From IMG/VR virus record IMGVR_UViG_3300032334_001937, positions 48,020 through 112,019 of that record: 64,000 bases of DNA; one strand, given 5' to 3'. Positions 27,333-46,569 of this stretch are shown here, piece after piece; the first letter of the stretch is position 1, and each line of letters opens with the position of its first letter. The DNA is from a virus. The notes beneath the pieces are model-generated. The model was given only the letters and a program-made list of their open reading frames with translations, was not told the origin of the DNA and searched no databases. The position numbers and the translations under genes were made by a program.

Positions 27333-27962
27333 TTATGAGATCCAGTGGTTTGGAACCATATACTTTAGTCCACTCTTAACAAGGTGTGCTGTATGATGGT
27401 AAGGTGGTGATGGCGGAAATACAATAATGCTTCCTGCTTTTGGTTTTACAGCAAATGTATAATTTCCAGTTCTTTCTGCTTCAGCAAAATCTGGGGTTGG
27501 TCCTGCTTGCTGCAAAATTCCATCAGGAGAAGAAATAGTAAATGATATTTCTCCGCCCTCATAATCATCATTAAGGTACATGACAAAAGAAACCTTTAGT
27601 CTTTCATCTCCTTCTTGCTGATCAAAGTGAGCGCCCATAAATGTACCAGGTTCATATCTTTTTATTGGGTACATAGGAAATAGCTTTGGCTCATCTGTAA
27701 TTCCTTGTGCAGCTGCATAGTCTTTTGCTACAACATCAAAGGCATCTCTAATTGTATTATAGATATAGTTATTTTTTTCATCATCATTCTCTGGAGTATA
27801 GATGGTCTTGTCTGTTCCATACACATAGTGCTGTCCACTACAGGCCATCCATTCACCCCAGGGATCTTCATTATCTTTGTCAATTGCCTCAACAAGTTTT
27901 TGAGGGTCTTGAATTACGTTTGTGTAATAGTAGACCTTTTCTTCAAGTATTTCTCTTTCCAT
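27333..27962 (-). CDS. 2OG-Fe(II) oxygenase (prolyl/lysyl hydroxylase type) 1, 209 aa
   Basis: The protein shows the double-stranded beta-helix signature of the P4H family: iron ligands H112-x-D114 (MGAHFDQQ), the strand motif MYLNDDYEGGEIS, the distal His in PPYHHTAH (near 189-193) and a 2-oxoglutarate-binding basic residue at K200 (Lys instead of the usual Arg). Such enzymes hydroxylate Pro, Lys or other residues of proteins using O2, Fe(II) and 2-oxoglutarate. It carries an insert around 145-165 between strands. It is the last gene of a run of five oxygenases; the substrate is not visible from the sequence. Confidence 0.88.
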   Translation of the reverse strand: MEREILEEKVYYYTNVIQDPQKLVEAIDKDNEDPWGEWMACSGQHYVYGTDKTIYTPENDDEKNNYIYNTIRDAFDVVAKDYAAAQGITDEPKLFPMYPIKRYEPGTFMGAHFDQQEGDERLKVSFVMYLNDDYEGGEISFTISSPDGILQQAGPTPDFAEAERTGNYTFAVKPKAGSIIVFPPSPPYHHTAHLVKSGLKYMVPNHWIS

Positions 27963-27973
27963 TTTATATCTCC

Positions 27974-28633
27974 TTAGTATCTATTCTTTTCGTAGTGATC
28001 TTTTTCTCTAATGAAACCTACTATGACATATCTTATTGGTCCATCACCAACAAATCTTACTCCGTGTTCATATTTTTCAGTTCCTGGAAAAACCAATAAA
28101 GAACCTGGTTTTGGCTTTAGTTCTATGTCAAGATGTTCAAAGAAAAGTTCTCCATCTACATAGTCATCATTTAAATAAAGAATTGTTGCATAGCGAATTG
28201 AGGGGTCTGTGTGCTGATCTGTATGTGATTTTAATTGAACCTTTTCCTGCATTCTTTGCATAGTTCCAAATCCACCAAGCTCTAAGCTGTCATCTAATTG
28301 TTTAACTAAAGAGTTTACTCTAGTATGAATTGTTCCAGTTACTTCATATTCAGTAATCTGCAAATTTTTATCATTCCAGTTTTTAGTAATTTCAAACTTA
28401 CCTTCTGCAACTAAGTTATCAACATCATCTCTTCCAAACTTTTCAAGACAAAATCTTTTTAAGTTTTTTACATACTCTATTGACCAGTCTTCTTCTGGTC
28501 TTGTATTAATAATATCCCATAAAGATGCAAGTTCTTCTTTAGACAAAAAATCCTCTACAAGCAAAATTTCATCGTCAATATCTGTACATTTAAAGTTATT
28601 TTTTTCAAATGACTCTTTTAAAAAATTAGACAT
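27974..28633 (-). CDS. 2OG-Fe(II) oxygenase (prolyl/lysyl hydroxylase type) 2, 219 aa
   Basis: Iron ligands are H137-x-D139 in KSHTDQHTD and H190 in YEHGV; R201 (PIRYVIVGF) is placed to bind 2-oxoglutarate. The core strand motif reads LYLNDDYVDGELFF. The N-terminal 130 residues are helical and unlike those of the neighbours, suggesting a different substrate or partner. The gene overlaps the upstream oxygenase gene by 8 nt, so the two are translated together. Confidence 0.9.
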   Translation of the reverse strand: MSNFLKESFEKNNFKCTDIDDEILLVEDFLSKEELASLWDIINTRPEEDWSIEYVKNLKRFCLEKFGRDDVDNLVAEGKFEITKNWNDKNLQITEYEVTGTIHTRVNSLVKQLDDSLELGGFGTMQRMQEKVQLKSHTDQHTDPSIRYATILYLNDDYVDGELFFEHLDIELKPKPGSLLVFPGTEKYEHGVRFVGDGPIRYVIVGFIREKDHYEKNRY

Positions 28634-29384
28634 TATTCTCCAGATCCTCTATCTTGTACCTATTACCACTAGCATCTATTTTATACCCTTGTTTGATGAG
28701 CTCTTGCCATTCTGCTCTTTCAATCTCTTGCTTTGCCCTAGTTTCTTTCATTTCTGCTGCCCAAGCATCTCTTACCTCTTGTGGGTATGCAGATTCTTCT
28801 CTATCATCCCAGAAAGATCCGATTGTATATCTAATACCCTTGGTGATTAAAGAAACTTCATGCATATTATTAAAACCACCATCAAATACTGCAAGCATTC
28901 CAACTTTAGGCTTAATTTCTATATCTTGATCTGGAAATTTTAAAAGTCCACCCTCAAAATCATCATTAAGGTATAAAAATCCTGCATATCTGCTTCTTGT
29001 AAATGCTCCAGAATTTCCATGCTCGTCTGTGTTGTCGGAGTGAATTCTTGCATATGCTCCTGGCTCCCATTTTTGAGTATGATATCCAATCTTACAAATT
29101 GTTTTTGGATCAAGGTCGTGTACTGAAGCAATGGCTTCTGGCATAACTTTCTCAATATCAGAAAACATTGTAGGTGAAAGTCCAGCATCTAAAACTTCTT
29201 GATCATTATCTTGTGGAGTTACAGAAGAATATGATTCATAAAAAGATATTGGCATCCAAGAAAGCTTGCCGTTATGTGCTTGAGCATCTAGTGCTTGAAT
29301 CATTTTTTTACAGTTTTCTTCAGAAATAAAGTTTTCGTAAACAACTATATCCTTTGTGATTCTTTTTTTATTATCTAGGTTCAT
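28626..29384 (-). CDS. 2OG-Fe(II) oxygenase (prolyl/lysyl hydroxylase type) 3, 252 aa
   Basis: Iron ligands are H115-x-D117 (RIHSDN) and H175 (NMHEV); R185 in GIRYTIGSFW binds the co-substrate. The strand motif is LYLNDDFEGGLLKF. After the catalytic domain an extra helical tail of about 55 residues, rich in Glu/Lys/Ala, ends in a short GNRYKIEDLEN segment, which could serve contact with another protein. It overlaps the upstream gene by 4 nt (ATGA). Confidence 0.9.
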   Translation of the reverse strand: MNLDNKKRITKDIVVYENFISEENCKKMIQALDAQAHNGKLSWMPISFYESYSSVTPQDNDQEVLDAGLSPTMFSDIEKVMPEAIASVHDLDPKTICKIGYHTQKWEPGAYARIHSDNTDEHGNSGAFTRSRYAGFLYLNDDFEGGLLKFPDQDIEIKPKVGMLAVFDGGFNNMHEVSLITKGIRYTIGSFWDDREESAYPQEVRDAWAAEMKETRAKQEIERAEWQELIKQGYKIDASGNRYKIEDLENNV

Positions 29385-30241
29385 CTTATTCTTCTCTCTT
29401 TGTCGGCATTAATTTTATTTGGATTCTTTTTTCTAAATTCTTCCATAATCTCTGACCATTCTTTGGCCCACTCTTCTTTTCCATAGTCAGCTTCTCTTTT
29501 GAGCCACATCTTGTCGCCAACTTCATACTTCATCCAGTACATTCTGGATAGATATTTTTTTGCTCCTCTTGGTGGGAGCACTCCATGAATATAAACCTGA
29601 TCATTTTTAGTCAATACATCTGGGTGGCCAGAAGGGAAAAGTAAGTAATCTCCAGCCTCTGGCTTATACATGTAGGCTTCACCATCAACAATAAAATCAA
29701 TCTCTCCACCCTCATAGTCATCATTAAAGTAAGCTAAAGCAGTTATAGCAAATTTATATCCTGGTGTTACCATTGGTTCTCTTACGTAGTCGGAATGATA
29801 TGTCATTGCTACTGGATCTTCTATATCTTCTCTATATCTTGCTATTGACGGCCCATTGGTTTTCCATAATTTTACAGTATCACCTTCATGGGTTGTGACC
29901 ATTGCATCTTTATCAAAATCAACACTATTTCTAGATATATAGTCTTCAGTTGCTAAATAAAAGTTTTCAAAAAGTTCTACCATTGCAGCTTTTTGCTCTT
30001 CGTCTTTTTCTGTTGCTGCTTCTACACTTTTAATTTCTTCTATGCTCATGGCACCTGGGCAACCTTTAAATAATGGATTAAGGTACTCTCCAAAACCAGA
30101 CCATTGTGACCAAGGGCTAAGTATTGCATCTTTATCTTCATCTTTTAGGATTGAGAATGTTTTTGAAATATCTTTAAACAGATTTTTATAAACAAATATC
30201 TTAGGATATATTTCAATACAGTCTAAAACCTTTTCTTTCAC
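29381..30241 (-). CDS. 2OG-Fe(II) oxygenase (prolyl/lysyl hydroxylase type) 4, 286 aa
   Basis: This is the longest member. Iron ligands are H149-x-D151 (MTYHSDY) and H219 (YIHGV), with R233 in YLSRMYW. The strand motif is AYFNDDYEGGEIDF. It has a longer N-terminal domain and a basic, Trp-rich helical tail (residues 240-286). It starts with GTG, overlapping the previous stop as GTGA. Residues 40-140 are more divergent than in the other copies. Confidence 0.9.
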   Translation of the reverse strand: MKEKVLDCIEIYPKIFVYKNLFKDISKTFSILKDEDKDAILSPWSQWSGFGEYLNPLFKGCPGAMSIEEIKSVEAATEKDEEQKAAMVELFENFYLATEDYISRNSVDFDKDAMVTTHEGDTVKLWKTNGPSIARYREDIEDPVAMTYHSDYVREPMVTPGYKFAITALAYFNDDYEGGEIDFIVDGEAYMYKPEAGDYLLFPSGHPDVLTKNDQVYIHGVLPPRGAKKYLSRMYWMKYEVGDKMWLKREADYGKEEWAKEWSEIMEEFRKKNPNKINADKERRIR

Positions 30242-30912
30242 GGCTTTCTATCTCCCGTATGCTCTGTAATTTCCCAGAAGAACGGGCATGTATATCTAAT
30301 ACCACTCTTGATCTCTGTTACTCCATGGATATAGTTTTTATCCCCTGGGAAGAAATATGCTGCACCCTTTTTGGGCTTGAACTGTACACCCTGTAATGGG
30401 AAGTATAGCTCTCCGCCTTCGTAGTCTTCATTCAAATAGAATAGGCTTGAAAGATCATAGTTTGGGAAATCATTAGGCAAGCCAGCATCTGGTCCCTCAT
30501 GAAGTTCTTTATCTGCGTGAGGTTTTTGAAATTGTCCTGGAAGCCATCTAACAATAGTTGTTCCAGTAGGTGTAACCTTTACCTTGTAGAACTCTTCAAC
30601 AATTGGCTTTAGTCTTTGAAACAATCCTGCAATTACAGGAGCAATAGCTGGATCATTTTTATCTAATGTTGGACTAGTCGCTACTCTGTCTTTCCAATAA
30701 TCTGAATCGTATACAACAGTTCCGTTTTCATTTACGTGACTCTGTGTTACATCCCAAATAGTTATAGACTTTGCAGCCTTTTCTAAAAAATCAATTTCTT
30801 CTTGTGTCATAAAGTTTTCTAGTTCAATAATCATTTCTTTTCCATTGCCAAACCAGCCCGAAGGGGTCATTGATGGTTTTCTAACTACTACTGAGGCATC
30901 CATATTATCCAT
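30238..30912 (-). CDS. 2OG-Fe(II) oxygenase (prolyl/lysyl hydroxylase type) 5, 224 aa
   Basis: Iron ligands are H132-x-D134 (KPHADK) and H196 (YIHGV); R206 in GIRYTCPFFW completes the site. The core reads FYLNEDYEGGELYF. It is closest to the oxygenase at 46563, sharing W-x-V/D-I starts of helices, PHADK, the FPGD-x-x-Y-x-HGV block and the RYT-P-FW end. It is the first gene of the five-oxygenase operon and has a -10 box exactly 6 nt upstream of its ATG, so the mRNA is probably leaderless. Confidence 0.92.
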   Translation of the reverse strand: MDNMDASVVVRKPSMTPSGWFGNGKEMIIELENFMTQEEIDFLEKAAKSITIWDVTQSHVNENGTVVYDSDYWKDRVATSPTLDKNDPAIAPVIAGLFQRLKPIVEEFYKVKVTPTGTTIVRWLPGQFQKPHADKELHEGPDAGLPNDFPNYDLSSLFYLNEDYEGGELYFPLQGVQFKPKKGAAYFFPGDKNYIHGVTEIKSGIRYTCPFFWEITEHTGDRKP

Positions 30913-30918
30913 AATAGC

Positions 30919-30924
30919 ATTATA
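30919..30924 (-). promoter_or_regulatory. -10 box of five-oxygenase operon (leaderless)
   Basis: TATAAT on the minus strand, 6 nt (GCTATT) before ATG 30912, in the 28-nt gap after the preceding gene. It would separate the five-gene operon from the block upstream. Confidence 0.65.
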
Positions 30925-30940
30925 TCATAGGCAAAAAATC

Positions 30941-31396
30941 CTATAATTCCCTTTCTATTTCTAGTTGTTTTAAAAATCTTTCTGGATTAAATCTCCAGTT
31001 ATCTTTTGCAAAAGAAGTTACAATCTTGATACAAACATCTTCATAGTCTTCTTTTTTTAGCTTATTTTTAAGCCCATAAAGTGCATCAACTGTGTCTATA
31101 TAGTTTTGCCTAACAAAAGATGGATCTCCCGCATGATTTCTTTTTAGCACTTTTGTTGTAACTTTTCCAGAAGGTTCGTACAAAGAAACAGTTAAAAACT
31201 CTTTTGCAAAACCAGCATCCTGATACATTTCATATCCTTCTAAAGCTTGGCTTAAGCTATCAAAAGATATAATAGATCTTACTGGCTTTTCACCATCTCT
31301 GGCAACAGTTATAATGTAATGACTTATTTTACCTAGCTTACAGTTTTCCACATATTCATTGACTATATCTGTGTGTATTGAGTTTAATTCACTCAT
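30941..31396 (-). CDS. unknown protein with duplicated 60-residue domain, 151 aa
   Basis: Residues 24-90 (SHYIITVARDGEKPVRSI, then the block AKEFLTVSLYEPSGKVTTKV) match the whole of the small protein at 51297 (ANEYATINFSEPNGKMHTKI). The second half is helical and basic, and the C-terminal segment resembles the small MTRKDYV protein at 50643 (IVTSFAKDNWRFNPERFL versus DFALMFEEDNPNFKREKF). So it seems to be a fusion of two small phage domains found separately elsewhere in this genome. The function is unknown; it shares one base with the next gene. Confidence 0.75.
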   Translation of the reverse strand: MSELNSIHTDIVNEYVENCKLGKISHYIITVARDGEKPVRSIISFDSLSQALEGYEMYQDAGFAKEFLTVSLYEPSGKVTTKVLKRNHAGDPSFVRQNYIDTVDALYGLKNKLKKEDYEDVCIKIVTSFAKDNWRFNPERFLKQLEIEREL

Positions 31397-32109
31397 TATC
31401 TACCGTGGCCTGTTTGATCATCTACAAAAAGCTTTAAGGTTTTTACTTCATGAGAACCAAGAGATTCTTGTTTTTCATTAACAGCATTTCTGTACCAATC
31501 TGTCCACTGACCACCAGAATTTACAACTTGTGCTGCTTCACCATAAGCTTTATTTGCTTCTACTCTTTTTCTATCTTCGTCCTTATAGTCAAAGATATTA
31601 ATTACTGTATTGTTTAGGTTAGTCAGTGATATAGGAATCAACGTTGCAATTGGAGTTCCTGCCTTAATAACAACTTTTTTATTTGCTACTTTTGCCTTAA
31701 TTGCTAAGGGTAGTGGGTTATCATAAAAAGATGTACTTATTAAAGAAGACATAGTTTCAAACTCATCACTAAAATAATTTACTGGATTAATAGAAAAAAT
31801 GCTAACGTCTTGATCTGTTTTAAATATTAATCCAGTACTTAAACTTACAGAGGATTGCCCTCTTCCAGAGTATGCTGTTTTTGGATTAAATATTTCTACA
31901 CGATCAGGCGTTTGATCATTAACTCCATCCCAAATAAACTCAATGTCTTCTTTGCAGGACAGACTATATCCAATAACATTTGCCTGTGTTACAGGGAAAC
32001 ATCTATATGCGTGATTTTCAGAAGTTTCATCCATCCAGTCTCTTTTAATTGACATTGAAGATATCTCAAAAATACAGTCTGGAGTTTTTTCAACTGAAAT
32101 ATTAAACAT
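31396..32109 (-). CDS. DUF6065-like protein among oxygenase genes, 237 aa
   Basis: The protein has the pattern CFPVTQANVIGYSLSC, EDIEFIWDG, then LIFKTD and the block VVIKAGTPIATLIPISL. A similar order, with a CPAI start, a TGY segment and AGTPYVQILPF, occurs in the protein at 32770, so I consider both members of one family, which resembles DUF6065. That family is found in phages and bacteria and has no known activity. The gene is directly adjacent to an oxygenase gene (one-base contact) and probably works with it. Confidence 0.55.
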   Translation of the reverse strand: MFNISVEKTPDCIFEISSMSIKRDWMDETSENHAYRCFPVTQANVIGYSLSCKEDIEFIWDGVNDQTPDRVEIFNPKTAYSGRGQSSVSLSTGLIFKTDQDVSIFSINPVNYFSDEFETMSSLISTSFYDNPLPLAIKAKVANKKVVIKAGTPIATLIPISLTNLNNTVINIFDYKDEDRKRVEANKAYGEAAQVVNSGGQWTDWYRNAVNEKQESLGSHEVKTLKLFVDDQTGHGR

Positions 32110-32760
32110 TTAGTCTTCTACATACATTTCTGCAGTATGGAACTTTTTGTTGTAGTCAAGCATGGTTACAATAGAATATTTTGTTCCAGAGTGAACTGGC
32201 ATTGCCTGGTGTGGATACATAAAGTTTGAAGGGAAGATAAATAGATCTCCTGCTTCTGGCTTTATCTTTAAGTCTTGAAGTCTAAAGTATAGCTCTCCGC
32301 CTTCGTAGTCATCGTTTGGATAAGCAACTAATGATACTGTGCAGTTATAAGAGAACCCATGATCATGGTGCTCCTTAAAGTGCTGACCTGGACCATACTT
32401 AATAAAGTTAAATGCTTCCCAGTACTTTAGCTCTCCCAGATTATAGTCTTTGCAGTAATCCTGTACTGCTGGAGCTTGAACATCATAAACATCTTGCCAT
32501 AGTGACTGTAGAGCAAGTGACTGTGGGCGTGTATCATGTTCAAGATTTTCCTTCTTAAACTTAAAATCAACACAGTCTCTATATTCTGGCATTAGCTGAC
32601 GGTATCCAACATATGCTGGCAACCAGCTATACTTTGTTTCATCTCCAACTTGGCCTAAGTTAGACTCAAGTCTATTAACAACATCAATTTCTTTCTTAAT
32701 TACATTCTTATAGCAATGAATTCCATTACCAAGATTAACTTTGTCAGTCCAAGTGCTCAT
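32110..32760 (-). CDS. 2OG-Fe(II) oxygenase (prolyl/lysyl hydroxylase type) 6, 216 aa
   Basis: Iron ligands are H131-x-D133 in KEHHDHGFSYNCTVS and H184 in YPHQAMP; the co-substrate residue is K194 (GTKYSIVTML), Lys instead of Arg. The core reads AYPNDDYEGGELYF. It is a close relative of the oxygenase at 33534: both share RDCVDFK, YWEAFNF/YYEAFNF, a GPGQHF-like turn, NCTVS and SGTKY. The pair forms a distinct subgroup. The ATG follows AAGGAGAAAA. Confidence 0.92.
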   Translation of the reverse strand: MSTWTDKVNLGNGIHCYKNVIKKEIDVVNRLESNLGQVGDETKYSWLPAYVGYRQLMPEYRDCVDFKFKKENLEHDTRPQSLALQSLWQDVYDVQAPAVQDYCKDYNLGELKYWEAFNFIKYGPGQHFKEHHDHGFSYNCTVSLVAYPNDDYEGGELYFRLQDLKIKPEAGDLFIFPSNFMYPHQAMPVHSGTKYSIVTMLDYNKKFHTAEMYVED

Positions 32761-32769
32761 TTTTTCTCC

Positions 32770-33537
32770 TTATTTATATTCTCTTCTTGTCCAAATTTGA
32801 TTCTTGTAAACACCACCATCGGGTTTACGATAAAAAGTTGCATTCTCTACCATTTTATCATACATATCTTTTTGATTTAGAATTTCAACTTCATTTTCCC
32901 AGTTTTCTCTCTTAAACGGTAAGATCTGTACGTATGGAGTTCCAGCTGGGATGGTTCCTTCCCAATCTTGTGCGATAAAGAATGGAAGACTTCCAATTAA
33001 TTCAACCTTATCAGAATCAACAACCCCAGTTGTATTCATGAAAGGAAGATCAAACCTATTCATTGGAGTCATAAATAGTGAACTATATCCTTCTGGTAGT
33101 CCTAGTGACCATTCTGACTGCCAAGCAAAATGTTCTTTATAGAATCCTTTTGGATGCTCAAACTGTGGCATAGGCGGTCTCTTAGTACAAAAATCTTTAT
33201 GCTTTTCATCAACTACCTTAACATCAATTTTTCCATTACTATCTTTAAAAAATTGAATATCACATGGAGTTAGTAAAACATAACCAGTTGAAAATCCATC
33301 CATAATAGCAGGACATGCTTTCCAGGTAGGAACCTTGCCATAATCATTTGTTGTTCCTTCTTTTGGAAAAGGACAAACCTGATTATTTGCTGGAAAGTAT
33401 TCCCCTGTGTAAGGATTCTTTGCAAATCTATCTGCATCTTTATACCAATCTGGAATTACCTTTTGTGTAGGCAATGGTACAGAAATACTATCTTTTTTTA
33501 ACCAAGGACGAAAAGCTTTAAATATTACTTTGTTCAT
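32770..33537 (-). CDS. DUF6065-like protein with IPDWYK motif, 255 aa
   Basis: It begins with a basic segment and the motif TQKVIPDWYKDAD, followed by ACPAIMDGFSTGYVLLTPCD and, near the end, FFIAQDWEGTIPAGTPYVQ. I know the IPDWYK start from uncharacterised proteins of aquatic phages. Together with the protein at 31396 it forms a pair that alternates with the oxygenases 6 and 7. It overlaps the upstream oxygenase stop by 4 nt (ATGA). The role is unknown; a cupin-like fold is possible but unproven. Confidence 0.55.
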   Translation of the reverse strand: MNKVIFKAFRPWLKKDSISVPLPTQKVIPDWYKDADRFAKNPYTGEYFPANNQVCPFPKEGTTNDYGKVPTWKACPAIMDGFSTGYVLLTPCDIQFFKDSNGKIDVKVVDEKHKDFCTKRPPMPQFEHPKGFYKEHFAWQSEWSLGLPEGYSSLFMTPMNRFDLPFMNTTGVVDSDKVELIGSLPFFIAQDWEGTIPAGTPYVQILPFKRENWENEVEILNQKDMYDKMVENATFYRKPDGGVYKNQIWTRREYK

Positions 33538-34247
33538 TTATGACTTAACTCATTAATATCTGTCATAATAACAACACAATATTTTGTGCCAGATTCCATT
33601 GGAAGGGATGCATGCTCATAGATATAGTTTGAAGGGAATACTGCAATATCTCCAACCTTTGGCTTGTATACTAAATTATCAAGTCTTGGAAACTTTAAGT
33701 CTCCTCCAACATAGTCATCATTAATGTAGATAACAGCAGACACTGTGCAGTTATATGCTGGACCGTGATCTGCGTGAATATTGAAGTGTGTACCTTCACC
33801 CTCATATTTTACAAAATTAAATGCTTCATAGTAAACAACATTAATGCCCCAATAACGTGCATAGTCATCTATACAAACCTTTAGCTTTTGATAAATCTCT
33901 TCATGTAGGTCAACAAGCTCTGCATTTGATTCATCCTTTGGTCCAAGGTCAGATTGCTTGTATTTAAAATCAACACAATCTCTAGCCTTTTTAATTGGAG
34001 TGGTAGAGTTGGTTACTTGAGCTTCATTCCATTTATACTTTTTGCCTCCTGAAAGATTTGACTCAAGCACATTGATATAACGCTTTGAGTCTTCTTCAGA
34101 AAAAACATTATGGTAAACATTTAGGCCTAATCCTGGATTACTAACAGATATCCCTTTATCAGGCAAGGCTCTTGCTACTCTGCTAGAAGCAGTCTCTGAT
34201 CTATCCTTAGTAAACCATGGATTTTCGTTTTCATTATATATATCCAT
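33534..34247 (-). CDS. 2OG-Fe(II) oxygenase (prolyl/lysyl hydroxylase type) 7, 237 aa
   Basis: Iron ligands are H158-x-D160 in FNIHADHGPAYNCTVS and H212 in YEHASLP; the co-substrate residue is K222 (GTKYCVVIM). The strand motif is YINDDYVGGDLKF. It carries a 40-residue extra N-terminus compared with its closest relative at 32110. It is the first gene of the minus-strand block and faces the GT60 glycosyltransferase gene across a 69-nt divergent promoter region. GGGGGAT is the ribosome site. Confidence 0.92.
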   Translation of the reverse strand: MDIYNENENPWFTKDRSETASSRVARALPDKGISVSNPGLGLNVYHNVFSEEDSKRYINVLESNLSGGKKYKWNEAQVTNSTTPIKKARDCVDFKYKQSDLGPKDESNAELVDLHEEIYQKLKVCIDDYARYWGINVVYYEAFNFVKYEGEGTHFNIHADHGPAYNCTVSAVIYINDDYVGGDLKFPRLDNLVYKPKVGDIAVFPSNYIYEHASLPMESGTKYCVVIMTDINELSHK

Positions 34248-34278
34248 TTATCCCCCGTGTAATTTAGCTATATGTAAA

Positions 34279-34310
34279 AGTATATCATATAAGAGGAAAT
34301 ACTGTATAAT
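34279..34310. promoter_or_regulatory. divergent promoters of oxygenase 7 and the glycosyltransferase
   Basis: The plus strand has TATAAT at 34305-34310, exactly 6 nt before the glycosyltransferase ATG. The minus strand has TATACT at 34279-34284, about 30 nt before the oxygenase start. No good -35 is seen in either direction. The two genes could be expressed together from this short region. Confidence 0.6.
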
Positions 34311-34316
34311 CTTTAT

Positions 34317-35234
34317 ATGAAGACTATATATGTTTCAATAGCAGCATACAATGAGCCACACCTTGACCTTATGCTATCAAATTGTTTAGAAAATGCAGAA
34401 TACCCAGAGCGTGTACATTTTGGAATTTGGTGTCACTATAATGATAATACCAGGCCTAATTTTGATAAATATAAAAATGTAATGCATGCATTTACAGATT
34501 ACCCCGCAATGCTTGGACTTTGTATTGGCAGGTTAAACTCTTTGTCTTTTTATAATGGAGAAGACTATTGCCTTCAACTTGATGCTCATATGCTTTTTGA
34601 AAAAAATTGGGATACAAAAATAATTAATGCTTTTGAAGAAATAAAAAGGGAACATGAAAAACCAATCATATCAACCTATGTTCCTTGGTGGTCAATATCA
34701 AATAATATAATTAATTATTACAGTAATGATGCAAATGTGTATTGCTCTCCAATGATTATAAATAAAGCTATTGGAAATGGCGAAGGATACCCAAAACTTA
34801 CAACAGAACATTTTCCCTGGGATAAAGAGGTTTATAAAGAACATGCACTAGTCACTGGTCATTTTATATTTTCTGAACCATCTGTACTTGAAGATGTATC
34901 TCCAGATCCACAAGTAATGTTTGGTGGAGATGAAATAACATTAGCATTAAGACTTTGGACAAGAGGCTATAGAATTTTTACCATCAAAAATCCAATAGTT
35001 TGGCATTTAAATAAATTTGATGGTGATCTATACTCAAAAGATCGTTTAATGAGAGCAGAAACCCCAGGAAGAGAAACAGAGCTTCATGGCAAAAGAAGTT
35101 ATACCAGTATGCAAAGAGTAAAAAATATTTTAACTGGTAAAATACTTGGTTATTGGGGAGCTCCAACAATAGAAAAATTAAAAGAATTTGAAAAAGTAAT
35201 TGATCTTGATTTTAATAAGTTTTATGAAGGTTAA
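34317..35234 (+). CDS. GT60-like glycosyltransferase (HyPro GlcNAc-transferase family), 305 aa
   Basis: The protein matches the layout of the GT60 family (Pfam GlcNAc): start IYVSIAAYNEPHLDLML, then HFGIWCHYND, GLCIGRLNSLSFYNGEDYCL, a metal/nucleotide site LQLDAHM (D89-x-H91, like the family D-S-H), STYVPWW, GHFIFSEPS and the acidic block FGGDEITLALRLWTRGYRI ending in PIVWHLNK. In Dictyostelium this family (Gnt1) attaches GlcNAc to a hydroxyproline made by a P4H on Skp1. Its place among eight P4H-type genes makes modification of hydroxylated protein likely. It lies opposite to its neighbours, has a leaderless start and overlaps the convergent oxygenase gene by 4 nt. Confidence 0.85.
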   Translation: MKTIYVSIAAYNEPHLDLMLSNCLENAEYPERVHFGIWCHYNDNTRPNFDKYKNVMHAFTDYPAMLGLCIGRLNSLSFYNGEDYCLQLDAHMLFEKNWDTKIINAFEEIKREHEKPIISTYVPWWSISNNIINYYSNDANVYCSPMIINKAIGNGEGYPKLTTEHFPWDKEVYKEHALVTGHFIFSEPSVLEDVSPDPQVMFGGDEITLALRLWTRGYRIFTIKNPIVWHLNKFDGDLYSKDRLMRAETPGRETELHGKRSYTSMQRVKNILTGKILGYWGAPTIEKLKEFEKVIDLDFNKFYEG

Positions 35235-35800
35235 AGAGCATATTCTTTAGAAGATATCCACATTGGGATAGCATATCTTGTTTTATTAATTTTATCTATC
35301 TCATGAGCAAAAATTTTTCCTTCAGATGGAAAAAATACAAAATCTCCTACTTTTGGATTATACTCAAAATCAGCAAACGGAAACCTCAATATACCTGTAT
35401 CCTCTAATGAGTTCAGATATATGATTCCACTGTACATAAACTGTGGATTAATGCCTTTATCTACGTCTTCGTGTAATCGTAATACTGATCCTGGACAATG
35501 CTTAGAGAACCATAGGTTTGATACTGCTATATCTGTTTTATTATAAAATTTACCTATTTGATTAATTACCCTTGGAAAAATTTTATCTTTAAAATAGTGA
35601 TTAAGATGATTATGCTTGCTAAAGTCTTCAAAAGAGTTTTGAAACAAAAAATCTTTTCCATACTTTAAAGCATATCTTTTATTGTTTTGGGTTGATTCAA
35701 AAACTTCTAAATTATTTTCAATAAAGTCTATAATGCGAGAAGCCTCATCTTCCGTTATAAAGTTATTTATAACTTGGATGAGGCCCCCCGACTGACTCAT
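35231..35800 (-). CDS. 2OG-Fe(II) oxygenase (prolyl/lysyl hydroxylase type) 8, 189 aa
   Basis: Iron ligands are H110-x-D112 (LRLHEDVDKG) and H166 (IFAHEI); R175 in KTRYAIPMW binds 2-oxoglutarate. The strand motif is IIYLNSLEDTGILRF, so it lacks the NDDYEGG signature of the other copies and forms its own branch. The stop of the Fn3 Phe/Pro-rich protein lies only 8 nt upstream of its start, which suggests that the two are made together and that the Phe/Pro tail may be its substrate. Confidence 0.88.
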   Translation of the reverse strand: MSQSGGLIQVINNFITEDEASRIIDFIENNLEVFESTQNNKRYALKYGKDFLFQNSFEDFSKHNHLNHYFKDKIFPRVINQIGKFYNKTDIAVSNLWFSKHCPGSVLRLHEDVDKGINPQFMYSGIIYLNSLEDTGILRFPFADFEYNPKVGDFVFFPSEGKIFAHEIDKINKTRYAIPMWISSKEYAL

Positions 35801-35808
35801 GCTACTTC

Positions 35809-36657
35809 TTAGAATCTTGTATCACGGAAGTACGGTGGTACGAAGTAAGGGAAGTACGGACCGAAGCTTGGTGGGAAGAACGGGAAGAACGGTGGGAAGA
35901 ACGGGAAGTACGGGAAGTACGGTGGGAAGAATGGGAAGTACGGTGGGAAGAACGGGAAGTACGGGAAGTACGGTGGGAAGAATGGGAAGAATGGAGGGAA
36001 GAATGGGAAAAATGGTGGGAAGAATGGAAAGAACGGTGCAATAGTAGTAACACTAGATGTAGTAGTTGATGCTGAAGTTCCTAGAGCATTGATAGCAACA
36101 ATTGTATATGTTTGAGCAGCTGGTGATGCAGCAGAAGGTGTATTATCAGCAGCATCATAGGAAGTTGCTGAACCAGAAATTCCAGTAAAGTTTCCTCCAT
36201 CAGATGAAGTAATTGTATATGATGTAATAGCACTACCACCAGTTGCAGGAGCAGTCCAGCTAATCCGATTAAGGTTTGCAGAAACTGTAGTTGCGCTCAC
36301 TGACTGTGGTGTTTGTGGTACTGTGGTAATAGCAATTGCAGAAGAAGGATCAGAAGCTTGTGATGTTCCAGCTGCGTTTGTTGCTGTTACTGTAAAAGTT
36401 ACAGATGCATTAGCAGTAATACCAGACACAGTAACTGGAGAAGAAGCTCCAGTTCCAGTTTGACCTGTGCTTGCTGTTACTGTAAAGGATGTTGCAGCAG
36501 GGGATAGCACAGGTAAAGAGAAGGAAACAGTTGCTTGACCATCACCATAAGCACGACCTGTTCCTGTATTAGTTGCAGATACGCCTGTAGGCTTTAGTGG
36601 CTCCAAGAAATCGTTTGATGCCTGGGAGTGTCTTCCTGCTTTTTTACCTGATGCCAT
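35809..36657 (-). CDS. Fn3 protein with Phe/Pro/Tyr repeat tail, 282 aa
   Basis: Residues 1-20 are basic; two fibronectin type III domains follow (about 21-112 and 113-203, with PQSVSATTVSANLNRISW and the YTIVAINALGTSAS end typical of the fold). Residues about 208-275 are an unusual tail built of FFPFFPP and YFPYFPFFPP units, with Pro at regular places and hardly any other residues. It is encoded next to virion fibre genes and read directly before oxygenase 8. I infer a surface fibre or appendage protein whose prolines are hydroxylated. The start ATG follows AAGGGGATAT. Confidence 0.8.
   Translation of the reverse strand: MASGKKAGRHSQASNDFLEPLKPTGVSATNTGTGRAYGDGQATVSFSLPVLSPAATSFTVTASTGQTGTGASSPVTVSGITANASVTFTVTATNAAGTSQASDPSSAIAITTVPQTPQSVSATTVSANLNRISWTAPATGGSAITSYTITSSDGGNFTGISGSATSYDAADNTPSAASPAAQTYTIVAINALGTSASTTTSSVTTIAPFFPFFPPFFPFFPPFFPFFPPYFPYFPFFPPYFPFFPPYFPYFPFFPPFFPFFPPSFGPYFPYFVPPYFRDTRF
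35835..36032 (-). repeat. tandem repeat encoding the Phe/Pro tail
   Basis: About 200 bp are built from units of the type GGGAAGAACGGTGGGAAG and GGGAAGTACGGGAAGTAC on the plus strand (6- and 9-nt subunits). The purine-rich plus strand has GGGAA runs throughout. Length changes by slippage are expected, which would alter tail length. Confidence 0.9.
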
Positions 36658-36679: not shown

Positions 36680-39493
36680 TTATGCTGTCAAGTCGCCGTA
36701 AACAACCCATGTATTTGTAGCTCTCTTGAAAAGAGTTGCAGATGACCATTGAGTTCTTAGCTTTAGACCTGGTGTTGCGTTTACTGTAACTCCAGTATCT
36801 CCTGCGATTGTTACCTGACCTGTTGAAGTCTGAAGGATATCAATTGATGTTCCGACTGGATAAGCAACTGCTGAGTTTGTTGGAATTGTGATAGTTGTTC
36901 CTGATGAAGATGCTACTTCAACAAGGCTATCTCTTTCTGTAAGTGATGAAAGTGTGTATGATGCTGTCTTCTGTACGATTGGTGTCCGTGAAGGAACGCC
37001 TTCCTTTGTCTGTGTACCGTCTGTAAATGCCACTCCAGATGCTGCAACTGTTACAAGACCTGTAAATGTTGGAGCATTGATTGGTGACTTAGCAGCAAGG
37101 TCAGATGTTAAACCTGAAATCTTTGACTGTGCAATTGCTGCTGATGCGTTTACATCTGCATCTACGATTGCTCCATCAGCGATCATTGCTGAAGTAACTC
37201 CACCAGTTGCAATATCAAGTGTTCCTGGTGTAGATTCTGTTAGACCAGAACCTGCTGTTACAGCCTTAGCAGCGTTGTATGCTACGTAGGTAATATTGCT
37301 TGAACCAATTGTGATTGCTGATGTGTTAGAACATACGTAACCGTATCCTGCACCAGCTGTACCTTCAAGTACGAGACAGAAGTCTCCGCCTGCAAGCTCA
37401 CCTGATGGAGTATTATCTGCATCAGCTGCACGAGACCATGTTGAAGCATTTACAACGTAGATACCGTTTGTCTTCTGGTCTGTCTGGTCCTTAACAAGAA
37501 CACGGTCACCAGCAATTACTGATACTCCGTCAATTGTCTGTGTTCCGCTTAGTGTAATATTTGCTGTTGTAGCAACACGAACTGGCTGGTGGAAGTTAAT
37601 TCCAGAAACTACGTTATCAACGTATGCCTTTGTTGCTGCATGTAGGTCTGCTGATGGAGCACCTGCAAGAGTAAGATCTCCTGTCATTGTTCCGCCAGAC
37701 TTTGACAACTTAGCATCAAGCTGTGTTTGAATTGCTGATGTTACACCGTCAACATAGCCAATTTCAGTAGCTGAAACATTTCCAATTGAAGTAGTACTTG
37801 GAAGAACTACAGTTCCTGTAAATGTTGGGTCTGCCTTTGGAGCCTTAAGATCAAGTGCTGTCTGTGTAGCAGTTGAAACTGGCTTATTTGTATCTGATGT
37901 GTTGTCAGCATTTCCAAGACCAACATCTGACTTTGTAATACCAGTTGGTGTATTAATAACTGGTGATGTTAAAGTCTTGTTTGTAAGAGTTTCTGTCTTA
38001 GTTGCAGTTGACTTAGCATCAAGCTGTGTCTGGATTGCAGAAGTAACACCATCAAGGTATCCAATTTCTGTGTCAGAAACACCTGAAACTACTGCTTGCT
38101 TTCCATTAAGCTGTGTTTGGATAGAAGATGTAACTCCATCAACATATCCAAGCTCTGTTGCAGATACTGTTGAAGATACTGCTAGCTTTGTCCAGTCAAT
38201 CGCAGCTGATGCATTAATGTCAGCGTTTACGATTGTGTCATTAGCAATCATTGTGCTTGTGACTGTACCTGTATCTGTTGTTGCAACAAGGTTAGCTGTA
38301 TTTGAAATTCCGTGAACAGCAGTTGTATCTGAGTTATGTGTGCCAATTGCATCATCAGCATAAGTCTTTGTTGCTACTGTTGAGTCAATATCAATTGTAA
38401 GTGTGTTTGATGCGTCATCGTAGTTATGCTGTAGTCCAGTACCTGAATTTAATGCACCAGCAATTGAGTCAACTGCAAGTTCACCAACATACTCTGAGTC
38501 AATGGCAAAACGATCATTGTCTGCATCCCAAGAAAGTCCTGTACCAACAAGGCCAGGGTAATCATTTGATACTCCACTAACAGCACTTGATACATAATCT
38601 TGTGTTGCAAGTGTTCCGCTTGCATCTGGAAGTGTAACTGTTCTATCTGCAGTTGGATCTATTACTGAAAGTGTAGTTTCAAAACCATCTGCTGTTGCAC
38701 CTTCAAAAATTACCTGGTTATTTACGTTAATAGCTGTGCTGTTTACTGTAGTTGTAGTACCGTTTACAGTTAGGTTACCAGAAAGTGTTAAATCTGCTGC
38801 ATTAACAGTACCTGTAAATGTTGGGTTTGCCTTTGGTGCTTTAAGATCAAGAGCTGTTTGTGCAGCTGATGAAACTGGCTTATTTGCGTCAGATGTATTA
38901 TCTACGTTGCCAAGACCTACTGAAGACTTTGTAAGTGCTGCAACTGCAGTTGATACTGCTCCGTCAGCATAAGTCTTTGTAGCAAGTGCTGAAGTATCAG
39001 CGATTCCATGAATATTAGTTGTATCTGCTTCGTGGTTTGAAAGAGCAGTATTTGAAGCCTTTGCATCAAGAGCAGTTTGTGTTGCTGTTGAGACTGGCTT
39101 ATTAGCATCTGAAGTATTGTCTACATTGCCAAGTCCAACGTGTGACTTTGTAACACCAGAAACTGTTCCTGTAAATGTTGGGTTAGCCTTTGGAGCCTTA
39201 AGGTCAAGGCTTGTTGAAAGTGTTGTAAAGAATGCTGGATCATCATTGATTGCTGCTGCAAGTTCATTAAGAGTATTTAATGCTCCTGGTGCTCCATCAA
39301 TAAGGTCATTAATTCCTGCAAGTGCACTTTCAGCATCTGTGAAGTAAGTAAGGTCAGCCCAGTGATTTGTGCCATCACCAATCTTAAATTTATTTGTGTC
39401 TGATTCCCAGCCGATTTCTCCTGCGTTGAGAATTGGGTTAGCGCCTGACCACTGTGATGCGGTTCCTCTGCGCTGTTGCATTCTAGTTGCCAT
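36680..39493 (-). CDS. tail fibre protein with repeat modules, 937 aa
   Basis: The N-terminus RRGTASQWSGANPILNAGEI, then DTNKFKIGDGTNHWADL, is the common phage fibre head domain (Mtd-N type). The shaft has repeats of GLGNVDNTSDANKPVS (three copies) and ATEIGYVDGVTSAIQTQLD (three to four copies), both known from long tail fibre proteins. The last 130 residues form a different C-terminal domain with VTIAGDTGVTVNATPGLKLR. It likely mediates host contact. A -10 box and AAAGGAGTAGTAA precede the ATG. Confidence 0.88.
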   Translation of the reverse strand: MATRMQQRRGTASQWSGANPILNAGEIGWESDTNKFKIGDGTNHWADLTYFTDAESALAGINDLIDGAPGALNTLNELAAAINDDPAFFTTLSTSLDLKAPKANPTFTGTVSGVTKSHVGLGNVDNTSDANKPVSTATQTALDAKASNTALSNHEADTTNIHGIADTSALATKTYADGAVSTAVAALTKSSVGLGNVDNTSDANKPVSSAAQTALDLKAPKANPTFTGTVNAADLTLSGNLTVNGTTTTVNSTAINVNNQVIFEGATADGFETTLSVIDPTADRTVTLPDASGTLATQDYVSSAVSGVSNDYPGLVGTGLSWDADNDRFAIDSEYVGELAVDSIAGALNSGTGLQHNYDDASNTLTIDIDSTVATKTYADDAIGTHNSDTTAVHGISNTANLVATTDTGTVTSTMIANDTIVNADINASAAIDWTKLAVSSTVSATELGYVDGVTSSIQTQLNGKQAVVSGVSDTEIGYLDGVTSAIQTQLDAKSTATKTETLTNKTLTSPVINTPTGITKSDVGLGNADNTSDTNKPVSTATQTALDLKAPKADPTFTGTVVLPSTTSIGNVSATEIGYVDGVTSAIQTQLDAKLSKSGGTMTGDLTLAGAPSADLHAATKAYVDNVVSGINFHQPVRVATTANITLSGTQTIDGVSVIAGDRVLVKDQTDQKTNGIYVVNASTWSRAADADNTPSGELAGGDFCLVLEGTAGAGYGYVCSNTSAITIGSSNITYVAYNAAKAVTAGSGLTESTPGTLDIATGGVTSAMIADGAIVDADVNASAAIAQSKISGLTSDLAAKSPINAPTFTGLVTVAASGVAFTDGTQTKEGVPSRTPIVQKTASYTLSSLTERDSLVEVASSSGTTITIPTNSAVAYPVGTSIDILQTSTGQVTIAGDTGVTVNATPGLKLRTQWSSATLFKRATNTWVVYGDLTA

Positions 39494-43713: not shown

Positions 43714-43749
43714 ATACCCCCTGAGCTATATGCTTGGGGGTATTTTTTT
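43714..43749 (+). terminator. terminator of the lysin gene, probably bidirectional
   Basis: An 8-bp stem ATACCCCC/GGGGGTAT is followed by TTTTTTT on the plus strand. On the minus strand the same stem is followed by CTTATTATTATTT and would also stop the convergent collagen-like gene. Confidence 0.9.
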
Positions 43750-44477
43750 TATGACACAGATATATAAAATGCTTTAATTTTTGCTTCGCAAGGATTATCT
43801 GTTCTTATTTGCGGTAAACCGCCAAAAGACTGAAACTCTGAATTATTTATAAAAAGAGTATGTTCTGCAGAAAAATCATATTCGTACTGGTACTTAAAAG
43901 AACCAATAAAAGAAGTAGGAGAAACTTCTTCATCACTTAACAGTGTTCTCATCCAAACCTCTGTATTATTTGAATATGTAGTCAATTTTATATCATAACG
44001 AATTGTTACAATTGCTCCGATATTAAGGTTTTTAAAATTTATTTTTTGTGCTACTTTGTTCCAAAGCGAAACATGACCTTTTGGCAAAAATAACTCATTT
44101 GTATTTTTTCCTTCTGCATCAACTAAAAGACTTACCCAACCATCTTCTCCTTGATCAATTCCAGTTCTTTGATCTTTAGTTCTTTTATTTTCATAATAAC
44201 CCCAGCCAATTTGTTGACCTGAAGGAGATAGTACGCTAGCACCATCTTTGCCATCTTTACCATTTTTTCCATCTTTACCAGAATCACCTTTATCGCCTTT
44301 TGTGCCCTGGTCTCCTTGATCACCCTTATCTCCTTTTGGTCCCGCTGGTCCTTGAGGGCCTTGTGGTCCAGGCACAGGAAGAAAGGATAGGGTATTGTCT
44401 TGGTATTGAGATTGCTCTACTTGTGCAGCATAGTTAGATTTCTTGTATGGCCCATCCATGCTTTTAGATATAGCCAT
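43749..44477 (-). CDS. collagen-like fibre protein, 242 aa
   Basis: Residues about 35-80 are 15 uninterrupted Gly-x-y triplets, from GPQGPQGPAGPKGDKGDQG to GKNGKDGKDG. Prolines are mostly in the x position; Lys occupies the y position in several x-K-G triplets, the sequence that collagen lysyl hydroxylases recognise. The N-terminal 35 residues form a small head, and a 160-residue C-terminal domain (GHVSLWNKVAQKINFKNLNI onward) is beta-rich and could be the tip. It is likely a virion fibre and a candidate substrate of the phage oxygenases. It is last in a short minus-strand operon. Confidence 0.88.
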   Translation of the reverse strand: MAISKSMDGPYKKSNYAAQVEQSQYQDNTLSFLPVPGPQGPQGPAGPKGDKGDQGDQGTKGDKGDSGKDGKNGKDGKDGASVLSPSGQQIGWGYYENKRTKDQRTGIDQGEDGWVSLLVDAEGKNTNELFLPKGHVSLWNKVAQKINFKNLNIGAIVTIRYDIKLTTYSNNTEVWMRTLLSDEEVSPTSFIGSFKYQYEYDFSAEHTLFINNSEFQSFGGLPQIRTDNPCEAKIKAFYISVS

Positions 44478-44564: not shown

Positions 44565-44956
44565 AAACTTCCTCCAGGTGTAACATCTCCAAGAACACAA
44601 ATTGTTCCGATTACTGGTGTCCAAGTAATTGTTGAACTACCATCTGGAACCACTGCCTGAAGGTCAAAAGAAAGCTCTGCTACTACTGATTTATATTTTG
44701 TTCCCCAGTTTGCTGTTACTGAAGCTGGTGCTGTAACTGTAACTACGCTTCCATCAGCTGTTACTGTAAGGTCATCTAAAAGGTCTGCAATGGGGTCATA
44801 GGCCGTTGCTGAATATGTCCAACCCACTGTGTCAAATTCTGTAACTTCGTCGTTTTCAAGAAGAGAAACGGTAAATGAAGCAGAGTCACCACGAACTACA
44901 GTCCACTGAATATTTGCTGGTGTAGCGCCAAATTTCTCTATTGTTGGTGAGCACAT
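44561..44956 (-). CDS. BppU-like Ig-fold baseplate-type protein, 131 aa
   Basis: It has the pattern IQWTVVRGDSASFTVSLLEN, then WTYSATAYDP and a final TICVLGDVTPGG, and is a paralog of the protein at 42562. Both begin with a G-A-T-P-x-x-x-W block before the R/K-G-D motif. It lies before the collagen-like fibre gene and may anchor it. A -10 box TATAAT lies 7 nt before the ATG (minus strand, 44964-44969), so the mRNA is nearly leaderless. Confidence 0.68.
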   Translation of the reverse strand: MCSPTIEKFGATPANIQWTVVRGDSASFTVSLLENDEVTEFDTVGWTYSATAYDPIADLLDDLTVTADGSVVTVTAPASVTANWGTKYKSVVAELSFDLQAVVPDGSSTITWTPVIGTICVLGDVTPGGSL

Positions 44957-44985
44957 ATCATTGATTATACCATAATAAATAGGAC

Positions 44986-45031
44986 TGACCCCTAGGGGCA
45001 GTGGGGTGGGTAGAGAGCAACCTAGGGGTCA
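44986..45031. repeat. inverted repeat in gene-free stretch 44957-45303
   Basis: An 11-bp perfect inverted repeat TGACCCCTAGG/CCTAGGGGTCA flanks 24 nt rich in G (GTGGGGTGGGTAGAGAG). No U-tract follows on either strand. The remaining stretch to 45303 is very AT-rich, has two AAGCCAGAGT copies and one tandem TGTCC site (45189), and shows no gene to me. Confidence 0.6.
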
Positions 45032-45188
45032 ATCATTATAAATTATAACATTCATTTATAAAATAGTTATTAAGCATCGTCCCCAGTATATTAATTAGTA
45101 ACAAAAAGTTATAATTGGGAATTTTAAAATATAAAGCCAGAGTGTATTGAAATTGTTATCAAAGAGTTATAAAGAGTTATATACCAAA

Positions 45189-45202
45189 TGTCCATTTTGT
45201 CT
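45189..45202 (-). promoter_or_regulatory. tandem GGACA motif (TGTCC, TGTCT)
   Basis: TGTCCATTTTGTCT: two copies with a 9-nt period, as at 52255. It lies in the gene-free stretch downstream of the holin-like gene. Confidence 0.45.
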
Positions 45203-45303
45203 CAATAAGCCAGAGTACTGATAGTGTATACTTAAAATATATAAAGAAAAGAAATAACTAACTAGTAAGGTTTTTAAGATATCTTATATATTATATATAG
45301 TAG

Positions 45304-45588
45304 TTATTTAGAACGAGCAATATAATCAAGTAATACATCGTACATATGATCTAGTTTATCACTAGTTGCTTTACGTTTTTCTCTAGCATTTTCTTGCTCA
45401 AGTTTAATCTGCTTAATTTCATCACGCATTGAAGATCCGCCGTTAGTTTTGGTTTCCGATCTAATATCTTCTACCGCTTCTACTATTGGCTTTACCTGGG
45501 CTTGAATATACCAACGAATTGATCCAACTACAATCGCTCCAATTGAAAGCAAAGCAAGAATGAATTGTGCCCAGTCTGTAGTGGTCAT
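45304..45588 (-). CDS. holin-like single-TM protein, 94 aa
   Basis: One membrane segment near residues 8-28 (FILALLSIGAIVVGSIRWYI) is followed by a charged helical tail of 65 residues, as in DUF2746-like or class III holins of actinophages. It lies within 2 kb of the lysin gene. A -10 TATAAT is found 9 nt before the ATG. It may form membrane holes or organise the lysis; the small size also allows other membrane roles. Confidence 0.6.
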   Translation of the reverse strand: MTTTDWAQFILALLSIGAIVVGSIRWYIQAQVKPIVEAVEDIRSETKTNGGSSMRDEIKQIKLEQENAREKRKATSDKLDHMYDVLLDYIARSK

Positions 45589-45743
45589 TATGAGATTATT
45601 ATACCATTATTTGAGATTAGATAAATAAATATAAAGTTCGCCCGATTAGACTCCGCCGATTTTAAAAGTCGCCGAAATAGAGATATCAAACCACCCTTGT
45701 ACAAACCCTGCATTAAAAATGCTATATGTACACATACTGGTAA

Positions 45744-45772
45744 TTGACTTTTAAAAGGGTTTGCGCTACAAT
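45744..45772 (+). promoter_or_regulatory. consensus-like promoter, leaderless
   Basis: TTGACT (45744-45749), 17 nt, TACAAT (45767-45772), then 6 nt to ATG 45779. It opens the plus-strand early region. Confidence 0.82.
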
Positions 45773-45778
45773 TGAGTA

Positions 45779-46375
45779 ATGGTAGATAGCATCAAAGATA
45801 CACTTAAACTTTTTTTACTGAGCAAATTACGCTTACATCACATGCTATACCGACTACCTGCTATTTCTGAATTTTTAGAAGAACTTATATCCGAAGCCTT
45901 GCAGGAAAACGGATACCCTAATGACTGGAAGCCTAATCGCTCACATGCTGTTTCAAAGGATCTTACACTAGATACTGGCAAATCGTTTTCAATTAAGTCG
46001 GGGATTTATGATCCAAAAAAGAAGACCCTAAAATTTTCGGGGAGTAGATTAGGAAAACACAACACAATAGAAGCTATGGTAGAAAGTATAGAGGCAACAC
46101 ACGCAGACTTCTACATATGCCTTGCAAAAGCCTCTGAAGACTGGTCTAGCATCCCAGGAAAGGCAGACCCTAAGACGTACTACCTATTTGTCTTTGAATC
46201 TGGTAAAATTGATTACAGCGGGGTTTGGGGAGTATCCGAATCCAAGAAGGGTGGTTTTAAATACGTGATTGACAAACCAGGTTTTCATGCAAAGATTGCA
46301 CCTTCCATGTCATATCAACTCTGGACTACTGTGGATACATCTATTATTGGCGAACCAGAGAAGTTGATTGTATGA
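45779..46375 (+). CDS. unknown protein, possible PD-(D/E)xK nuclease, 198 aa
   Basis: The protein has a helical N-terminus and the block DLTLDTGKSFSIKSGIYDP followed by FSGSRLGKHN and IEATHADFYICLAKASEDWS. A D-x(n)-S-x-K pattern followed by an acidic region is what one sees in some restriction-type nucleases, but I cannot confirm the catalytic set. It is the first plus-strand early gene and overlaps the next gene by 4 nt. The start is fixed by the promoter 6 nt upstream. Confidence 0.55.
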   Translation: MVDSIKDTLKLFLLSKLRLHHMLYRLPAISEFLEELISEALQENGYPNDWKPNRSHAVSKDLTLDTGKSFSIKSGIYDPKKKTLKFSGSRLGKHNTIEAMVESIEATHADFYICLAKASEDWSSIPGKADPKTYYLFVFESGKIDYSGVWGVSESKKGGFKYVIDKPGFHAKIAPSMSYQLWTTVDTSIIGEPEKLIV

Positions 46376-46569
46376 GTGATGTAAGTTTTGGTGATTGGCT
46401 TAAACCTTCTACGCCTAGAGCCAGTGAGGATCTCATTGAATCCCGCTTTAAAATTTGCTCTGAGTGTGAGTTTTTTAAGAAGAATGGATCCCGCTGCAAA
46501 TTGTGCCATTGCTTTATGAAGCTTAAAACCGAACTATTACATGCTAGGTGTCCAATAGGCAAATGGTAA
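46372..46569 (+). CDS. Cys-rich zinc-cluster protein (DUF6171-like), 65 aa
   Basis: Cysteines are arranged as FKICSECEFF, SRCKLCHCFMKLKTELL and a final RCPIGKW. This is the order of a small family, DUF6171-like, found in phages next to oxygenase and capsid genes; it probably binds one zinc or an iron-sulfur centre. It overlaps both neighbours (4 and 7 nt) and lies directly before oxygenase 9. Confidence 0.7.
   Translation: MSDVSFGDWLKPSTPRASEDLIESRFKICSECEFFKKNGSRCKLCHCFMKLKTELLHARCPIGKW

Follow-up and report, generated by a model that had tools for sequence, protein, structure and literature searches.

A conserved array of 2-oxoglutarate-Fe(II) oxygenase genes is paired with a Phe-Pro-repeat fibre gene in a freshwater phage lineage

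The viral record IMGVR_UViG_3300032334_001937 contains a 64,000-nucleotide stretch (the window; positions refer to it unless the record is named) in which eight genes coding for 2-oxoglutarate (2OG)-Fe(II) oxygenases (oxA to oxH) and two coding for DUF6065-type proteins form an array located between fibre genes and ribonucleotide reductase (RNR) genes (Table 1). This array is syntenic with a gene coding for a fibre protein that ends in a Phe-Pro (F/P) repeat, and the pairing is conserved in a large lineage of freshwater phages. On balance, we favour the interpretation that the array is a fibre-hydroxylation operon with the Phe-Pro repeat as its main substrate. The original prediction, made from the bare sequence, had proposed a dedicated system for hydroxylating virion or host proteins: its virion part is now the best-supported reading, with the adjoining FFPP-repeat fibre as a newly named candidate substrate, and its host part is retained only as a rival.

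A scan of IMG/VR with oxG identified at least 592 related stretches, and gene order was compared in the best 80 (81-100% identical). A recurrent order was observed in which fibre genes and the repeat gene are followed by oxG, a DUF6065-like gene, oxF, the DUF6065 gene, oxE, oxD (in part of the relatives), oxC, oxB, oxA and RNR. The two DUF6065-like paralogs were almost always interleaved in the array, and small rearrangements of this pair occurred within the otherwise recurrent order. The F/P-repeat gene was found upstream of oxG in all 42 loci with enough upstream DNA, at a distance of no more than 2.6 kb in 40 of them and slightly farther upstream in two. For the reverse analysis, F/P-repeat genes were chosen by their DNA-level repeat pattern alone: 79 of the 87 having the required downstream sequence showed an oxygenase gene within 2.5 kb downstream on the same strand, versus only 2 of 57 control genes with collagen-like GPQ repeats (Fisher p 2e-28, a value that ignores relatedness). 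Several of the repeat genes without a nearby oxygenase belonged to records that carry the array elsewhere. The repeat pattern was present in at least 120 viral stretches versus only four matches in 11.3 million bacterial contigs. A contig of a Chitinophagaceae metagenome-assembled genome, JAFMJX010000128.1, carries both the F/P repeat and oxygenases, and is probably a mis-binned phage contig.

In 146 unique open reading frames (ORFs), the repeat consists of 53% Phe and 43% Pro, in units FFPP and FFP; in the relatives it has a median length of 68 residues, and a variable Cys-rich tip often comes after it. A tblastn search of phage records with the repeat fibre gave a single weak match, to its fn3 part; the repeat itself was probably lost to low-complexity masking, and DNA patterns were therefore used. 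An exact search for the C-terminal motif PPYFRDTR recovered two contigs only. A second fibre-like protein of 685 aa, encoded outside the window (record 44701-46758), has a related tail (PFFPFFPP...PPYFRDTRF). In two relatives (L096, 2-742, and L094, 3-656, both on the plus strand) a Hint/intein-like domain ending in VHNK follows the FFPP repeat, and the fibre may thus be self-processing.

All eight minus-strand oxygenases (27333-35800) passed the Pfam cut-off for PF13640 (2OG-FeII_Oxy_3), as did the window genes at 46548 and 61475, that is, 10 of the 11 that had been predicted. The remaining one, at 63422, stayed below it (24.7 vs 27 bits, E 4.6e-5) and was recruited by an iterative hidden Markov model. 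By alignment, the 11 share the anticipated HxD...H iron triad (HxE in 61475) and the Arg or Lys residue that anchors 2OG. The interval first described as an oxygenase array, 27333-36657, indeed holds the eight oxygenases, together with two DUF6065-like genes, a hypothetical gene, a glycosyltransferase gene and, at 35809-36657, a fibre gene that is not a hydroxylase. Pairwise identities among the oxygenases are low (median 22%, maximum 44%), which points to old paralogs and makes chance no concern. In a tree of 119 sequences, each of oxA to oxG was recovered as a separate supported clade in which 10-14 of the 14 loci were represented, and these seven orthologous clades fit the earlier suggestion that the paralogs probably act on different residues or proteins. 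The active-site motifs are intact and the genes are under purifying selection: the catalytic residues are invariant in oxB (n=78 sequences), oxC (n=88) and oxE (n=109), the iron triad is invariant in oxD (n=61) and near-invariant in oxF (n=114), and the distal His is invariant in oxA (n=92). The median ratio of nonsynonymous to synonymous substitutions (dN/dS) ranged from 0.09 to 0.24 across the array genes (oxE 0.09, the array minimum; oxC 0.13; oxF 0.15; oxB 0.24), the exceptions being oxD (0.36) and the poorly sampled oxH.

PDB was searched with a profile built from 77 oxygenases of the array and of its relatives. The top ranks were occupied by the prolyl 4-hydroxylase (P4H) of B. anthracis, P3H1, a PKHD hydroxylase, and Chlamydomonas P4H, PBCV-1 P4H and PHD2; the lysyl hydroxylase LH3 was also among the matches. 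The catalytic HxD, H and Lys of the array enzymes align with those of solved P4H. Structure prediction, run on oxG, gave an AlphaFold2 (AF2) model (pLDDT 88, pTM 0.85) with the double-stranded beta-helix fold, for which all of the 50 best Foldseek matches in PDB were prolyl hydroxylases, including those of PBCV-1 (5c5t) and P. putida (4iw3). Prolyl hydroxylases were thus the closest solved structures by both profile and fold. These results support the protein-hydroxylase class proposed initially, with the array enzymes being predicted to be mostly prolyl hydroxylases.

The same searches bear on two other functions. DNA repair or DNA-base modification has been proposed for cyanophage 2OG-Fe(II) oxygenases, some of which lie beside uvsX/uvsY/uvsW (PMC9146016); several copies in P-SSM2 are next to replication genes, and oxE, alone in the array, gave a weak Tet_JBP match (7.6e-4, below the Pfam cut-off). 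However, prolyl and lysyl hydroxylases far outranked Tet-like enzymes in the profile search (5cg8, E 3e-4), AlkB was absent from the PDB matches listed, neither TET/JBP nor AlkB was the best profile match, and the array is flanked here by fibre and RNR genes. DNA modification was therefore disfavoured, and we consider it very improbable. The second function is modification or regulation of a host protein such as EF-Tu, as in Pseudomonas, the adjacency to the fibre gene reflecting only shared late expression. The P. putida P4H-EF-Tu complex (4iw3) is among the oxG fold matches, and gene neighbourhood in phages can mirror timing alone. Timing alone, however, does not predict a repeat with so few bacterial occurrences and an almost constant association with the array, and seven conserved paralogs seem many for a single host protein; a host target appears distinctly improbable.

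We propose that the array enzymes would hydroxylate the phage's own adhesion fibre, mainly at the (FFPP/FFP)n C-terminus of the fn3 protein. Lys-type and Arg-type enzymes might split the work between the two prolines of FFPP and the single proline of FFP; alternatively, the division could be between 3- and 4-hydroxylation, or involve other residues. For the two DUF6065 proteins we envisage a role as partners or carriers. In some phages, including the present one, a sugar would next be added to hydroxyproline by the PF11397 glycosyltransferase. The stalk so formed would be of the polyproline type, stiff and soluble, and would bear the variable tip. Gene neighbourhood and fold suggest the substrate and the residue, and we infer the sugar step and the benefit to the phage. 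This proposal is favoured by the counts in both directions (42/42, and 79/87 vs 2/57), the rarity of the repeat in bacteria, the prolyl-hydroxylase fold, the presence of PF11397 in the array, and a separate oxygenase-fibre pairing in marine phages (see below). It is also favoured by the actinobacteriophage relative DSL-LC01, related by its RNR, in which neither a PF13640 match nor, in the pattern search, an F/P repeat was found.

Regarding the accessory proteins, the glycosyltransferase of the array contains a PF11397 domain (8.5e-34), which we take to be the family of the Skp1 hydroxyproline N-acetylglucosamine (GlcNAc)-transferase; a sequence search found no relative of it in PDB. Besides this record, it occurs in 5 of 27 records of the lineage, which indicates an accessory step. 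The DUF6065-like protein encoded at 32770-33537 was modelled by AF2 with a pLDDT of 92.9 and weakly resembles trimeric dUTPase/dCTP deaminase; since this match is weak (Foldseek best E 2e-3, TM 0.3 by query), no function was assigned. The DUF6065-like paralogs have relatives in haloarchaeal HF2-like viruses.

The presence of 11 oxygenase copies in one genome had been regarded as remarkable, and we rejected copy number as the chief novelty. An identical Pfam search, counting PF13640 matches at E up to 0.01, gave 11 matches in P-SSM2, 12 in S-SSM7, 13 in HTVC008M, 14 in S-SCSM1, eight in ACG-2014f and seven in S-H9-1, so that marine T4-like phages reach 7-14; nine copies have been published for cyanophage S-SZBM1 (PMC9146016). 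Related records of the present lineage mostly have 6-9 PF13640 genes, some up to 13, and the whole 112-kb record has 15 2OG-Fe(II) oxygenase genes, four of them outside the window. The Kyanoviridae P-SSM2, S-SSM7, S-SCSM1 and HTVC008M resemble it in their PF13640 matches (7-14 per genome) and short tandem runs, but their oxygenases are scattered, partly by DNA genes, with no fixed array in the regions compared, and the pattern search did not find the FFPFFPP repeat in them. Marine cyanomyoviruses nevertheless present a pairing of their own: a distance of about 1.7 kb separates oxygenase genes from the gene of a short tail fibre with an RQPRNFR-type repeat, a Pro/aromatic repeat also rich in Arg, Gln and Asn. 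In S-SCSM1, runs of oxygenases flank the repeat-bearing short tail fibre on both sides, and related contigs show this arrangement again. This suggests that the marine pairing may have arisen independently.

The composition of the marine repeat, rich in Arg, Gln and Asn besides Pro, would also be compatible with hydroxylation of the neighbouring fibre at residues outside the F/P repeat (Asn, Asp, Lys or Arg, in the fn3 part or the Cys-rich tip), as would the mixture of Lys and Arg anchors and the divergent N-termini of the enzymes; the dominance of prolyl hydroxylases among the fold matches argues against it. A related alternative is the collagen-like protein (43749-44477), which is encoded in the window and is in line with LH3 being among the profile matches. 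However, it had matches in only four loci, whereas conservation beside the array is seen for the F/P repeat, and collagen-like genes are generally not beside oxygenases (2/57); we therefore rejected it as a general substrate for the lineage. Taken together, these alternative targets seem unlikely.

Several observations weigh against hydroxylation of the Phe-Pro repeat. Three long partial records with the repeat show no oxygenase, and most repeat loci are of one lineage, so that common descent may explain part of the pairing. In other phages, many oxygenases are located beside DNA-replication genes, and the family as a whole thus need not act on fibres. To our knowledge, FFPP is not among the peptide substrates of P4H, and the array seems to have more enzymes than a simple repeat would require. 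The PF11397 enzyme is only accessory, prolyl hydroxylation of the fibre is proposed from genes and predicted fold, and we found nothing direct in the literature on hydroxyproline in phage tail fibres.

The genes of the array overlap or are separated by no more than 28 bases, except at one place, where a gap of 983 bases accommodates the glycosyltransferase gene on the plus strand. Elsewhere in the record, a WhiB-family regulator gene (record 17170-17343), also found in most long relatives, points to an actinobacterial host, and the nearest relatives of the RNR and the capsid protease are from actinobacteriophages; the phage, a freshwater one, thus probably has an actinobacterial host. The assembly of DSL-LC01 comes from lake water, and this phage is itself probably an actinobacteriophage (PMC10611076). 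The left end of the record contains ORFs resembling glycosyltransferases, epimerases and methyltransferases, and one resembling, by sequence appearance only, a NodU-type carbamoyltransferase. These ORFs would be in line with a role of the array in making a decorated sugar or small molecule, a function that has been proposed for clusters of jumbo cyanophages in which carbamoyltransferases and halogenases occur (PMC7824862). However, these genes are distant from the array, the conserved array lacks sugar-biosynthesis genes, and its enzymes resemble protein hydroxylases; we give this explanation very little credence. A gene at record 13454-14053 showed a weak GT25-like glycosyltransferase match (22.9 vs 24 bits); family GT25 includes the collagen hydroxylysine galactosyltransferases.

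Table 1. Location and features of the genes considered in this work (window positions, except where the record is indicated).
Feature	Position	Strand	Description
Window	record 48020-112019		right part of the 112,019-bp viral record
oxA	27333-27962	-	2OG-Fe(II) oxygenase, 209 aa, Lys anchor; PF13640 6e-11
oxB	27974-28633	-	2OG-Fe(II) oxygenase, 219 aa, Arg anchor; PF13640 2.7e-10
oxC	28626-29384	-	2OG-Fe(II) oxygenase, 252 aa, Arg anchor; PF13640 3.3e-8
oxD	29381-30241	-	2OG-Fe(II) oxygenase, 286 aa, Lys anchor; PF13640 2.3e-6; absent from some relatives
oxE	30238-30912	-	2OG-Fe(II) oxygenase, 224 aa, Arg anchor; PF13640 3.3e-9
Hypothetical protein	30941-31396	-	151 aa; no Pfam match; minority of relatives (21 loci)
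DUF6065 protein	31396-32109	-	237 aa; PF19541 2e-24; 79 loci
oxF	32110-32760	-	2OG-Fe(II) oxygenase, 216 aa, Lys anchor; PF13640 5e-15
DUF6065-like protein	32770-33537	-	255 aa; phrog_7084
oxG	33534-34247	-	2OG-Fe(II) oxygenase, 237 aa, Lys anchor; PF13640 5e-10
Glycosyltransferase, family PF11397	34317-35234	+	305 aa; PF11397 8.5e-34; accessory
oxH	35231-35800	-	2OG-Fe(II) oxygenase, 189 aa, Arg anchor; PF13640 8e-7; accessory, 4 loci
Fibre/adhesin protein	35809-36657	-	282 aa; fn3 domains (3.5e-9) and C-terminal (FFPFFPP/PPYF)n repeat
Tail-fibre-like protein	36680-39493	-	937 aa; Mtd_N PF18454 8.8e-12; PHROG tail-fibre/minor-tail matches; upstream of array
Collagen-like Gly-X-Y protein	43749-44477		in the fibre region of the window
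Oxygenase outside array	46548-47108	+	2OG-Fe(II), 186 aa; PF13640 6.5e-8
Oxygenase outside array	61475-62095	+	2OG-Fe(II), 206 aa; PF13640 1.1e-12; HxE replaces HxD
Oxygenase-like ORF	63422-64000	-	2OG-Fe(II); PF13640 4.6e-5; cut by the record end
Asp/Asn beta-hydroxylase-like gene	record 4212-4676		PF05118 (Asp_Arg_Hydrox); adjoins another 2OG oxygenase gene

Virus-encoded prolyl hydroxylation is already known as a proposal for PBCV-1, and what is new here is an oxygenase array paired with an F/P-repeat fibre. The P4H of PBCV-1 (5c5t) is virus-encoded and matches the array enzymes in fold and catalytic residues, but it is a single enzyme of a eukaryotic virus, whereas the array lineage has 6-9 paralogs in an operon beside the repeat gene. 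For the PBCV-1 enzyme, collagen-like or other proline repeats have been reported as substrates, not FFPP. In the phage, a proline-repeat protein is likewise encoded in the same virus, as the FFPP fibre adjacent to the array, and its FFPP and FFP units are unlike the P4H substrates X-Pro-Gly, PAPK and Ser-Pro; this makes membership in a PBCV-1-type system less probable without weakening the analogy. As cited in a later account, 4-hydroxyproline has been proposed to occur in PBCV-1 proteins (Eriksson 1999, cited in PMC9301287). In Dictyostelium and Toxoplasma, the Skp1 prolyl hydroxylase and Gnt1 act in succession, hydroxylation being followed by glycosylation of the hydroxyproline (PMC11570480); that pathway targets one proline of a ubiquitin-ligase subunit in oxygen sensing, whereas in the phage a repetitive virion fibre and an optional glycosyltransferase are proposed. 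PPHD of Pseudomonas putida (4iw3) is a bacterial protein prolyl hydroxylase of the same fold, but its target is the translation factor EF-Tu and it forms no array.

More tentatively, and with clearly less confidence than in fibre hydroxylation itself, we suggest that the lineage might possess a phage 'hydroxyproline-rich glycoprotein' system, in which 6-9 specialised hydroxylases, joined by the pair of DUF6065 proteins as partners and optionally by a hydroxyproline GlcNAc-transferase, would turn a Phe-Pro repeat that would otherwise be insoluble into a modified adhesive stalk, comparable pairs of fibre repeat and hydroxylases having evolved in cyanomyoviruses. Among the auxiliary genes of aquatic viruses, those for prolyl hydroxylases are abundant and unexplained, and the viral use of prolyl 4-hydroxylase 'remains cryptic' (PMC9301287); the pairing described here points to a specific candidate substrate. 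If the proposal is true, fibre hydroxylation would be a common reason for the many 2OG oxygenases of aquatic phages, whose adhesion fibres would be hydroxylated and possibly glycosylated, with effects on host recognition, and the demand for oxygen and 2-oxoglutarate would be affected while the phage infects.

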